Of a DNA stretch of 32,136 bases, positions 4,578 to 14,642 are shown one piece after another. The notes under the pieces were generated by a model, which was not told the DNA's origin, made no database searches, and saw only the letters and a list, made by a program, of their open reading frames with translations. Position 1 is the first letter of the stretch; each line of letters opens with the position of its first letter. Source of the DNA: Cytophagales bacterium (GTDB lineage Bacteria > Bacteroidota > Bacteroidia > Cytophagales > VRUD01); the NCBI GenBank assembly GCA_019456305.1, contig VRUD01000051.1, positions 1-32,136 on the forward strand. The letters are read 5' to 3'. A program made the position numbers and the translations under genes.

Positions 4578-6032
4578 TCATCCCAACTTCAGCTTCTGTC
4601 CTGGCTTTATCTTATTTGATTTCAGGTTATTGAGCTCTTTAAGTTGATCGATGGTGACTCCTTCATATTTACGGGAAATATCCCATAAAGTATCGCCCGG
4701 CTGTACATAATGTATTTTCCCCTTGGGTATCGGAACAGGTTTGACGGATACTGTTTTTGTTTTGTATTTAGTGAAATAGGCGGGGTCTTTCCATATAGTA
4801 AGCTTTTGGCCAGTGCGAATCATCGTGCCTTTTATATTGTTCCATGCCCTGATCTGCGAAATTCTTACATGGTATTTTTCAGCTACTTTTCCCAGCACAT
4901 CTCCCTTTTTTACAGTATATACAATTTTTTTCCTGCCTGTCCCGACTTTGTCGGGATAATTTGTATTCTTTCCTGTTATTTGACCAGACGCAATATTTAA
5001 AAGAACAGAAGCATCAAGGCAGGATGCAGAATCCATGATAAATGCCCGGTTTAATACAATAAATTCTTTCTTATCGGAAGGCACTTTCAATGGATATTTT
5101 TTTTCACTTTGTGGAATTATATCACTTTTGACCTCCGGATTGAGCCTGTTCAGGTCATCCTCGCAAACTCCGATAAGGCCGGCAAATACTGACAAACTGA
5201 TGGTTTGCTGAATAATAATGGTATCACTAATGATCGGATATTCGACAGTATCAACAAAGATATTATGGTGTTCAGCATAGTTTAAAGCATAATTGACAGC
5301 AACAAAAGAAGGGACATAACCCCTTGTTTCCCTGGGAAGGAAATTATATATTTTCCAAAAATCTCTTTTATAACCCGATCTTCTGATAGCTCTTCTTACT
5401 TTGCCCGGCCCGCAATTATAAGCCGCTAAAGCTAATTCCCAGTCGTTGAAGATATTATAGAGCTGCTTCAGATATTTACAGGCTGCCTCGGTAGATTGGT
5501 ACGGGGCCATCCTTTCATCAATAAAACGGGTTTGTTTCATATCAAACATTTTGCCGGTATAATACATAAATTGCCACAATCCTGTTGCTCCGGCTCTTGA
5601 AACAGCTTTGGGGTTAAGCCCCGACTCTACGATGGCTAAATATTTCAGCTCTTCGGGAAGGTCATATTTTTTAAAGGCCGCTTCAAAGACCGGAAAATAG
5701 AGATTTTTCCTTCTTATCATTAACCTCGTATATGCCCTGTCTGCAATAGTGAAGTAGTCAATAAAAGACCTGACGGTTCTGTTAAAAGACAAATTTATTT
5801 CACCTTCGATACAGCCAAGCCTGTCTCTGATAAGATCATCAGGCAGATCAGGGATATATTCGTACCCTTCAATTGGAGTATCATATAGTGTATCCAATGC
5901 TACCTGGCTGGAATCATACCGGACTATTTTACTATCCGGCTGCATACTTGTGTCAACAGTTAGTTGTTTTGTGCAGCAGAATAAAATCAATGAAATAGCT
6001 AATGCGGGGTAATATTTTAAGGATCTTTCCAT
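4578..6032 (-). CDS. Membrane-bound lytic murein transglycosylase with two LysM domains (MltD-like)
   Basis: The 484-residue protein has an N-terminal hydrophobic segment ending LILFCCTKQ, compatible with a lipoprotein signal (Cys19 or Cys20). The lysozyme-like SLT domain (about 105-235) shows the catalytic Glu136 in IVESGLNPKAVSRAGATGLW and the conserved ALAAYNCGPGKV at 201-212. Two LysM peptidoglycan-binding domains follow (about 371-414, YTVKKGDVL...; and 440-483, HYVQPGDTLWDIS...). Such enzymes cleave glycan strands to 1,6-anhydro products at the outer membrane during wall turnover. It sits 34 bp downstream of gatA in the envelope gene series. A TCCCGACTTTGTCGGGA palindrome encodes residues about 359-365 (YPDKVGT) in the linker just before LysM1, a spot that tolerates insertion. 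The start is the first ATG before the hydrophobic segment. Confidence 0.93.
   Translation of the reverse strand: MERSLKYYPALAISLILFCCTKQLTVDTSMQPDSKIVRYDSSQVALDTLYDTPIEGYEYIPDLPDDLIRDRLGCIEGEINLSFNRTVRSFIDYFTIADRAYTRLMIRRKNLYFPVFEAAFKKYDLPEELKYLAIVESGLNPKAVSRAGATGLWQFMYYTGKMFDMKQTRFIDERMAPYQSTEAACKYLKQLYNIFNDWELALAAYNCGPGKVRRAIRRSGYKRDFWKIYNFLPRETRGYVPSFVAVNYALNYAEHHNIFVDTVEYPIISDTIIIQQTISLSVFAGLIGVCEDDLNRLNPEVKSDIIPQSEKKYPLKVPSDKKEFIVLNRAFIMDSASCLDASVLLNIASGQITGKNTNYPDKVGTGRKKIVYTVKKGDVLGKVAEKYHVRISQIRAWNNIKGTMIRTGQKLTIWKDPAYFTKYKTKTVSVKPVPIPKGKIHYVQPGDTLWDISRKYEGVTIDQLKELNNLKSNKIKPGQKLKLG
4940..4956. repeat. Dispersed palindrome TCCCGACTTTGTCGGGA, coding copy
   Basis: This 17-bp palindrome with 7-bp arms lies in the linker of the MltD-like gene. 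An identical copy is intergenic at 23063-23079 and a near copy is at 23007-23023. Confidence 0.75.
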
Positions 6033-7995: not shown

Positions 7996-9129
7996 TTATT
8001 TATTGATCTCTACAATCCATTCCTTAAAAACAGGATTGCTAATGGTGTATGTTTTACCAGCGTGGTGAATAAGATCTTTTTTGATAAGTCCCTTTAAAGT
8101 AGTGGCAAGGGTAGACGAAACAGGTAAATTGAACTTGTTGCTAACTTTTTGAGAAAACAATTCTTCTCCGGTTTTTAATAAAGCTATTGACCTGAGAACA
8201 TTTCTCTGATTTTTATTTAATTGATCATATATATTTTGAAAAATAATAGATTGGCTGGCTATTATTCTATTGATCCATAGATCTGTAAAACCCGGAGAAT
8301 CCTGGTCAATGCCTTCATAAATAAGCTGCCAGACAATAGAAGCAAAATATTGAGTAAAGTGTGGATGTAAGTCAGATTTATTCAAAATAATACCAACATT
8401 TGTGTCAGTAATGGAAAGTCTGCTTTTAGCAAATTTTTCTTTTATAAATCTTGTCAAATCCTCAGATGAAATAGGATATATGGGCATTTTAAATCCAAAT
8501 TCATATAATGGTGAATTGGTTGAGGCAAAAATGCTTTCCATTAATGACTGCTTGCTGCCAAGAAAAATATAGGATACATCTTTCTGTCTTTGAAAAGAGC
8601 TTCGCATCCAGTTGATCAAAAAAGGTTCTATTCTATTGATTTCCTGGAACTCATCAAAAGCAATGCAAATTTGCTGTTTGTTTTTTTTTGCAATTTGAGC
8701 TGGTATCTGAAGAATTGTTTCAATATCCTGTTGTTCTTCAATGCTCTGAACTTCTAATGAAAACGATGGGTTACCAAACTGATCAAAAGATGCTTTTGGC
8801 AGAAGGTTTTTAAAATATACTCCAAATTTTTTTGTTAGGGTACTGATATTATCTTTCCAGTTAAACAAACTTTCAGCTAATATCTGCGCATATTTTTTAG
8901 CAAAATCATCCAAAGACTGAATATTGTAAAGATCAAAATAAATAGTTTTAACATTCTTAATTTTATTAAATGATTCTAATATCAAAGAGGTTTTTCCATA
9001 TCTTCTTGGAGAATAAAGCCAAAAAGAATACCTGTTATAGATAGCAGTTTTAATTTCCTTAAGCTCTTTTGTTCTATTGCAAAAGTATTCTCCTTTTACA
9101 ATTTCTCCATATTTGAAAGGATTTCGCAT
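7996..9129 (-). CDS. AAA ATPase with C-terminal winged-helix-like region (archaeal-type ATPase family)
   Basis: A 377-residue ATPase that starts MRNPFKYGEIVKGEYFCNR, the usual N-terminus of the archaeal-type ATPase group (ATPase_2/DUF234-like). Walker A is SPRRYGKTSLI (40-50) and Walker B is ICIAFDEFQEI (154-164), followed by a sensor-like IFLGSKQSLM. The C-terminal 80 residues (QLNKNQRNVLRSIALLKTGEELFS...LPVSSTLATTLKGLIKKDLI) look like a winged helix, as in STAND-type regulators. The biological role of these proteins is unknown; they are patchily distributed and often found near mobile DNA. Consistent with that, this gene separates tatA from the EnvC-like gene and is preceded by three 15-bp tandem repeats and a MITE-like element. 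Confidence 0.8.
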   Translation of the reverse strand: MRNPFKYGEIVKGEYFCNRTKELKEIKTAIYNRYSFWLYSPRRYGKTSLILESFNKIKNVKTIYFDLYNIQSLDDFAKKYAQILAESLFNWKDNISTLTKKFGVYFKNLLPKASFDQFGNPSFSLEVQSIEEQQDIETILQIPAQIAKKNKQQICIAFDEFQEINRIEPFLINWMRSSFQRQKDVSYIFLGSKQSLMESIFASTNSPLYEFGFKMPIYPISSEDLTRFIKEKFAKSRLSITDTNVGIILNKSDLHPHFTQYFASIVWQLIYEGIDQDSPGFTDLWINRIIASQSIIFQNIYDQLNKNQRNVLRSIALLKTGEELFSQKVSNKFNLPVSSTLATTLKGLIKKDLIHHAGKTYTISNPVFKEWIVEINK

Positions 9130-9136
9130 GTTTTAA

Positions 9137-9181
9137 CACGTAAATATACGACACGTAAATATACGACACGTAAATATACGA
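9137..9181. repeat. Three 15-bp tandem repeats upstream of the AAA ATPase gene
   Basis: The unit CACGTAAATATACGA occurs exactly three times at 9137-9151, 9152-9166 and 9167-9181, followed by a decayed fourth (TACGTAAAATTGC). The array starts 8 bp upstream of the ATPase start codon, within its leader or promoter. TTTAACACG at 9132-9140 has its complement CGTGTTAAA at 9223-9231, bracketing the array. It could be a binding-site array for an autoregulator. Confidence 0.75.
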
Positions 9182-9204
9182 TACGTAAAATTGCAAAATA
9201 GGTT

Positions 9205-9461
9205 GGCTTTAGTTTAATATAGCGTGTTAAACTGTATATTAGCTCTGTAAATGTACACGAAATTGATAAAATCGGCAGTCGATAATCGGCAAAAAGGCAA
9301 AATTGATAAAGTCGGCAATCGGCAGTCGGCAAAAAAGCAAAAAACAATTGCCGACTGCCGACTGCCGACTGTAGACTGTGGACTGTCGACTGCCGACTTA
9401 AAGGTATTTAATGTGATTTTGAAAAATTATACATTTTGCAACGTTAGTTTAAACTAAAGCC
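9205..9461. mobile_element. MITE-like element with 13-bp terminal inverted repeats and 8-bp target duplication
   Basis: GGCTTTAGTTTAA (9205-9217) and TTAAACTAAAGCC (9449-9461) are exact inverted ends. They are flanked directly by AATAGGTT on both sides (9197-9204 and 9462-9469), an 8-bp direct repeat as left by transposition. The 257-bp interior has no convincing gene. It holds an imperfect hairpin of TCGGCAA/CAGTCGG heptamers (9271-9330) and complementary CTGCCGA units (9344-9398). A transposase acting in trans would be required; none is in the window. Confidence 0.8.
9271..9398. repeat. Heptamer-repeat hairpin inside the MITE-like element
   Basis: The right arm reads as consecutive 7-bp units (TTGCCGA, CTGCCGA, CTGCCGA, CTGTAGA, CTGTGGA, CTGTCGA, CTGCCGA). 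The left arm contains complementary TCGGCAG/TCGGCAA units. Small open frames over this repeat are artefacts of the periodicity. Confidence 0.7.
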
Positions 9462-9478
9462 AATAGGTTTTGGGGGTT

Positions 9479-10681
9479 TTACTTTTTTAAAAGCCATTCT
9501 TCCGGATCCATTTTAGTATGGTTTTTCCACACCTGGAATTGTATCTCAGAGACACCATCTTTGTCGGTATAAACTTCGCCCAACAGACCCATGGTATTAA
9601 CTGCCTGCCCGGTTTTTACCTTTACGTTCTTTAATCTTGCATAAACGGTAAAATATTCTCCGTGCTGTATCATCACTGCCTGGTTCAGTCCCGGTACGGA
9701 GGCAACGGCACTTACCTTTCCTTTAAAAACTGCCCTTACGGACTCTCCGTTATTTGTTTGTATATCCACGCCTAAATTATCAATAATTACTTTCGGCAAA
9801 ACCGGATGCTGCTGGCGGCCAAATTTGCGGGAGATAAATCCATGTTTCACCGGCCAGATCAACCTGTTTTTATTCCCTTCAAATGAAGAGGAAAGCATCG
9901 CTGCTTCAGGTGTGAGCATTAATTTACCTGCCGAAGATTTTTTTATTACTTTTTTTACAATGTCCGAGATTAATTTTTCTAACTTTAGGAGCGCCTTGTT
10001 CCTGTTCTCTAATTCCCTGAGCAATTCCTTCTCCCTGCCAACCAGTTTTTTTACTACTTCATTTTTTTCAGATTTAAGTGTGATAAGATTTTGAGCTTCA
10101 ATCATTTGAATACGGAGCAATGACTCTTTTTCTTTTTTCTTTTTTGTAAGACTATTTTTTTCTACACTCAATGCCTCTTTTACCTTTTCAATTTGCTGAA
10201 CCTGGGTTTTACGCGCTTCAGAATACTGCTCAAAGTATTTTAACCTCATAATTAGCTGGTTGAATGTTTTGGCTGAAAAGATAAAGGTAAGCTTGTCGTA
10301 GCTGTTGTGTGCTTTATATGCAGCATAGATCATAGCAGCATATTCTTCCTTGAGTTTTTGCAGATCAAAAGCAAGAGCTGTAATTATTTCTTCATTTTCA
10401 CCAATTTCATCTTCCAGGAAAATGATTTCCTCAGAGATTGAGTTGATCAGCGATCGTCTATCCTTAATTTGCTGTTTTAAGGCATAAAGCTGTCCGATAG
10501 ATGCTTTCTTTTTAATTTTAGTCCCCTCTAAAATTTTGCTGGTCTCTTTAATCTTCTTTATGATCTCTTTTTTTTCCCTTTCAAGCTGGCTTTTGTTTTT
10601 TTGGGCATGGGATAGGGTGGTCGTGGAAAGTATGATTGATAAACAAAACAAAAAAAATGTTATCTGATTATATAGTTTCAT
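9479..10681 (-). CDS. EnvC-like murein hydrolase activator (degenerate M23 domain)
   Basis: About 400 residues: a signal peptide (MKLYNQITFFLFCLSIILST, cleaved after SHAQ), a long charged coiled coil (about 30-255, with LEREKKEIIKKIKETSKIL and later heptads), then a LytM/M23 fold (about 285-400). All zinc-ligand positions of active M23 peptidases are replaced: the usual HxGxD motif is NLGVDI, the HxH near YAHL is YARL, and the last LHFE-type motif is IQFQ. As for E. coli EnvC, this predicts an amidase activator rather than a peptidase, acting in the periplasm during septum splitting. The ATG at 10681 lies after the DUF4292 stop; an ATG at 10696 would overlap that gene and begin inside a heptamer repeat, so 10681 is preferred. 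Confidence 0.88.
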   Translation of the reverse strand: MKLYNQITFFLFCLSIILSTTTLSHAQKNKSQLEREKKEIIKKIKETSKILEGTKIKKKASIGQLYALKQQIKDRRSLINSISEEIIFLEDEIGENEEIITALAFDLQKLKEEYAAMIYAAYKAHNSYDKLTFIFSAKTFNQLIMRLKYFEQYSEARKTQVQQIEKVKEALSVEKNSLTKKKKEKESLLRIQMIEAQNLITLKSEKNEVVKKLVGREKELLRELENRNKALLKLEKLISDIVKKVIKKSSAGKLMLTPEAAMLSSSFEGNKNRLIWPVKHGFISRKFGRQQHPVLPKVIIDNLGVDIQTNNGESVRAVFKGKVSAVASVPGLNQAVMIQHGEYFTVYARLKNVKVKTGQAVNTMGLLGEVYTDKDGVSEIQFQVWKNHTKMDPEEWLLKK

Positions 10682-10702
10682 ATATCTAATATCCAATATC
10701 TA
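10682..10702. repeat. Three ATATCYA heptamers at a gene junction
   Basis: ATATCTA, ATATCCA and ATATCTA lie in tandem between the end of the DUF4292 gene and the start of the EnvC-like gene, encoding the last residues (LDIGY) of the former. They belong to the same 7-bp periodic class as other repeats in this window. Confidence 0.55.
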
Positions 10703-14484: not shown

Positions 14485-14642
14485 TGAGTCCACTCTAAAA
14501 AGTGTTTTTGGTTCTTCCCGAGTACTCGGGACAAAGAGCACAAAGTTATATACTTAACTAATTGATATTCAATCCTTTGCGAACTTTGCGTCTTTGCGAG
14601 AAACGATTTCTTTTCAATTTTTTACTTTTTAGAGTGGACTCA
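14485..14642. mobile_element. MITE-like element with 19-bp terminal inverted repeats and 4-bp AGTT duplication
   Basis: TGAGTCCACTCTAAAAAGT (14485-14503) and its exact complement at 14624-14642 bound a 158-bp element, flanked on both sides by AGTT (14481-14484 and 14643-14646). Inside are a perfect palindrome CCCGAGTACTCGGG (14517-14530) and a run of CTTTGCG units (about 14577-14598). It lies 22 bp upstream of the nucleotidyltransferase ATG, separating it from dut. Single ends of the same element occur at 26953-26971 (19/19, followed by AGTT) and 23160-23177 (diverged, in coding sequence). Confidence 0.82.

Follow-up and report, generated by a model that had tools for sequence, protein, structure and literature searches.

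What is the short insert that lies between two genes on a contig of a Cytophagales bacterium, and what kind of enzyme put it there? The stretch analyzed here (the window; 32,136 nucleotides) is contig C51 of a 4.25-Mb genome in 159 contigs. Reading the sequence directly, we found perfect 13-bp inverted ends and an exact 8-bp duplication, AATAGGTT, on either side, as the initial annotation had described (Table 1). The figure of 257 bp given there for the interior is the right length for the whole element (9205-9461); the stretch from one terminal repeat to the other measures 231 bp. Within the 32-kb window, 9197-9469 is the sole combination of an exact 8-bp direct repeat with a 13-bp inverted repeat pair (≤2 mismatches). 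Analytically, 4e-5 perfect structures of this type are expected per window, and none of 100 Markov-1 simulated windows contained the same structure by chance.

Table 1. Features of the element and its flanks (window coordinates)
Feature	Position	Strand	Basis or remark
Left target-site duplication AATAGGTT	9197..9204	.	Direct read
Left terminal inverted repeat GGCTTTAGTTTAA	9205..9217	+	Direct read; 35 exact matches listed for the genome
Left conserved end, ~62 bp	9205..9266	+	Copy comparison; match in L108
Variable core, heptamer hairpin GGCAGTC / GACTGCC	9308..9398	+	Also alone elsewhere in the genome
Right conserved end, ~62 bp	9400..9461	+	Copy comparison
Right terminal inverted repeat TTAAACTAAAGCC, exact reverse complement of GGCTTTAGTTTAA	9449..9461	-	Direct read
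Right target-site duplication AATAGGTT	9462..9469	.	Direct read

The element shows the general features of a MITE (i.e., it is short, lacks a transposase gene, and has terminal inverted repeats and a target duplication). Its site is intergenic; the neighboring genes, both on the minus strand, encode an ATPase_2/AAA protein (7996-9129) and an M23 peptidase (9479-10696). The single open reading frame of at least 80 aa that touches it (9096-9347, minus strand) was rejected as a real gene, being an accidental frame across repeats, which agrees with the earlier statement that the MITE holds no transposase. A 15-bp repeat, ACACGTAAATATACG, stands in tandem at 9136-9189, between the start of the ATPase gene and the MITE.

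The same genome contains at least 12 end-to-end copies of 101 to 328 bp, and an exact 8-bp duplication is present at 12/12 copies with readable flanks; a 13th copy runs into the start of its contig (C116). At C2 and C39, two of the 12, the duplication is one and the same AT-rich octamer. The duplications are 87.5% AT, versus 62% for the window. The copy at C80:9134-9390 is 100% identical over all 257 bp and lies within a different duplication, TATTGTAT (element orientation). Because an identical copy occupies another site, movement appears to have been recent, and this part of the initial annotation is upheld together with its MITE reading, which gains support from the many further copies bearing 8-bp duplications of their own. 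The relatives searched all came from other families, and the identical copy serves as evidence of recent insertion in place of an empty site with a single AATAGGTT. Most copies are almost the same over the outermost ~62 bp at either end and differ in the length and content of the middle. Numerous additional single ends, truncated ends, and fragments are scattered across the genome. The insertions at C2 and C32 are also intergenic; gene interruption was considered at both and rejected, since the long stop-free spans there belong to genes that begin just past the MITE.

The core contains the heptamer hairpin that had been reported, with inverted arms (9307-9332 and 9348-9373) that are 92% complementary and a single-strand fold z of -8.9. 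The same hairpin (~90 bp) also occurs alone at many places in the genome, without MITE ends, and the MITE thus resembles a dispersed repeat enclosed between transposon ends. These solitary hairpins, together with the Y1 (RAYT-like) transposases in the genome, would fit a reading of the whole element as a non-mobile REP/BIME-like hairpin repeat that was spread by other means and whose 8-bp duplications are coincidental. We consider this extremely improbable: exact duplications, mostly of different sequences, at every one of the 12 copies go beyond chance, the ends are kept as precise boundaries, and the 101-bp copy on C43 retains both ends and its duplication although its core is gone. The duplications refute the REP/BIME-like reading of the whole element, a refutation that does not extend to the origin of the core. 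The core resembles REP/BIME sequences in being a short hairpin dispersed over a genome with Y1 transposases; unlike them, it is also carried within a DDE-type element with duplications, and no heptamer array adjoins the Y1 genes examined. Five solid Y1 (IS200/RAYT-like) transposase genes were recorded (L178-L182). A palindrome, GAGTACTC, is found close to one of these genes (L179) and close to a weaker match (L183), which are too few occurrences for a link. A long heptamer array of ~20 units in register was observed outside MITE ends at about 600-790 of L167 (C37:22300-23387).

We searched 84,980 prokaryote genomes for the pattern formed by the end and subterminal bases, GGCTTTAGTTTAANNTANCGT; entries from the MITE's own genome were absent from the output and possibly excluded. 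Nine stretches matched, in other MAGs. The most informative is L111, from a Flavobacteriaceae MAG, where matching ends (the right one with 2 mismatches to the MITE end) bound a 1083-bp element encoding a 328-aa transposase. This protein scores 181 bits against the NF033547 IS1595 family model (NCBIfam; cut-off, 75) and 45 bits against PF12762; no clear 8-bp duplication was seen at the L111 element. In the genome of another matched stretch (L106), an IS1595 transposase 61% identical to that of L111 (L146; 173 bits) is bounded by GGCTCTAGTTTA ends, a close variant. Judged by eye, L105 and L108 each place a matching end beside an apparent transposase-gene start, cut by a contig end or broken by a stop, and the first 24 nt of the MITE's left end equal the transposase-side end of the IS1595-like element in L108 (Ignavibacteria MAG). 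Full-length insertion sequences with GGCTTTAGTTTAA ends, which the initial annotation had proposed as something to look for, do exist, in other MAGs, and are of the IS1595 family. Short gene-less elements with matching ends also occur in other MAGs, one of which (L113; 226 bp) has an exact duplication, TTAAGGTG. The match in L112 is probably a chance occurrence in ordinary coding DNA.

The IS1595 family (NF033547 / PF12762) comprises the groups ISPna2, IS1016, ISH4, ISSod11, ISNwi1, and ISNha5, with ISApl4 as an example. Duplications of 8 bp are typical of its members, and terminal GG is a feature of the related Merlin elements (PMC8101967); ISApl4 yields AT-rich 8-bp repeats (PMC12561309). 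The MITE resembles these insertion sequences in that its ends start with GG and form short perfect inverted repeats (14 bp in ISApl4), its 8-bp duplications are AT-rich, and its ends also occur, identical or almost so, on copies carrying an IS1595 transposase in other MAGs (L111 and L146). It differs from them in having no transposase gene, in its length (257 bp versus about 0.7-1.1 kb), and in that its own genome has no detectable IS1595 copy in the readable contigs. Since copies with duplications occur in one genome and the same ends bound an IS1595 element in another MAG, we consider it very likely that the element is a non-autonomous MITE of the IS1595 family. The end-matching transposases come from MAGs that are not closely related, so that only the ends connect them with the MITE.

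Among PF12762 loci in 291 genomes of the order, the best 30 belong to other IS1595 subgroups without the MITE ends and were rejected. A strict protein search of 395 genomes of the phylum at E 1e-20 yielded nothing closely related to the L111 transposase, and both the pattern scan and the protein scan of viral contigs were without matches. On plasmids, only relatives <60% identical were found.

In the MITE's own genome, neither the PF12762 profile nor the protein query detected an IS1595 transposase in the readable contigs, with twelve contigs of <3 kb masked. The protein query gave a single broken and distant match, in the zinc-ribbon region, at C38; it was rejected as a partner, being an IS1-like, frame-broken gene without MITE ends. 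A search for IS256/mutator transposases in the same genome was also negative. A collapsed multi-copy insertion sequence could sit in the masked contigs. Sharing ends with an autonomous element of the host genome is common among MITEs but does not define them. The enzyme encoded elsewhere that the initial annotation proposed is thus putative.

Several transposase families make 8-bp duplications. One of the others (ISL3, IS256, IS66, or ISAs1) might therefore have moved the MITE, its likeness to IS1595 ends being fortuitous, and the lack of a detected IS1595 gene in the readable contigs would agree with this. However, the 13-bp end and subterminal bases match at both ends of L111, a close variant bounds a second IS1595 element, the agreement extends over the 24 nt at L108, and no IS256/mutator transposase was found in the genome; we regard a mobilizer from another family as highly unlikely. 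A variant of the IS1595 reading is that the family is now inactive, its transposase having since been lost and its copies left immobile. The readable contigs, in which no IS1595 transposase was detected, and the many truncated ends speak for such a loss, whereas the pair of identical copies with clean duplications implies recent activity, and the masked contigs are where a collapsed multi-copy insertion sequence would be located. Inactivity is possible, although on balance we doubt it.

For an IS1595-family MITE, the following course of events may be envisaged. An insertion sequence would have had its transposase gene replaced, leaving its ends around the heptamer hairpin, itself a dispersed repeat. 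These ends would then be bound by a DDE transposase of the IS1595 type, supplied in trans, which would cut AT-rich intergenic DNA with an 8-bp stagger and join the ends to the cut; the 8-bp duplication would result from its repair. Variation in the middle could reflect expansion and contraction of the heptamers, internal deletion (e.g., the C43 copy), and insertion of a 16-bp palindrome. A composite scenario, rather unlikely in our estimation, is that the DDE-type element serves as a vehicle seeding the minisatellite hairpin genome-wide; the in-step change of the ends to GGCTATATTTTA, which one copy has at both ends together with an exact duplication, would suggest switching between related transposases.

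Among known MITEs with a tandem repeat array inside, the nearest to it are BrickBuilt and MITE464/PgRS from Porphyromonas gingivalis, whose ends are IS5-type (PMC4596501). They have in common with the present MITE a Bacteroidota host, a tandem-repeat cargo, intergenic placement, ~12 to 24 copies, and ends that match a full-length insertion sequence. They differ in their ends and duplications (IS5-type and irregular, versus IS1595-type and uniformly 8 bp) and in their cargo (direct arrays of 23 or 41 nt, versus heptamer arrays in inverted orientation). The MITE family described here is new, of an ordinary kind, and carries an unusual repeat cargo. A bacterial lineage that has been poorly sampled thereby gains a well-delimited IS1595-type family, two of whose copies are identical and whose duplications are clean. 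Minisatellite-carrying MITEs gain a further example, built on another type of transposon than the two from Porphyromonas. The family also illustrates how intergenic DNA builds up from layers of repeats: a heptamer hairpin core within an IS1595 shell, and a 16-bp palindrome inserted in its turn. Known mechanisms are left unchanged by the finding.

Two further kinds of variation were observed among the copies. At 1501-1788 of L153 (C39:5461-5748), a subfamily member has both ends changed to GGCTATATTTTA and an exact 8-bp duplication, AATTACTA; single GGCTATATTTTA ends are present in L150, L152, L155, and L156. The GGCTATATTTTA end has 9 matches in the genome versus 0 for a control, and this subfamily keeps the subterminal sequence of the main MITE. 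The 16-bp perfect palindrome, TCCCGAGTACTCGGGA, is located in the window at 14516-14531 and is dispersed over 203 genome sites (≤1 mismatch), versus 0 for the reversed control. Some MITE copies are broken up by it, as if it inserts independently; in one case (L066, ~5068-5097) the interruption is a 30-nt palindrome flanked by a TAAA/TAAAC repeat on either side.
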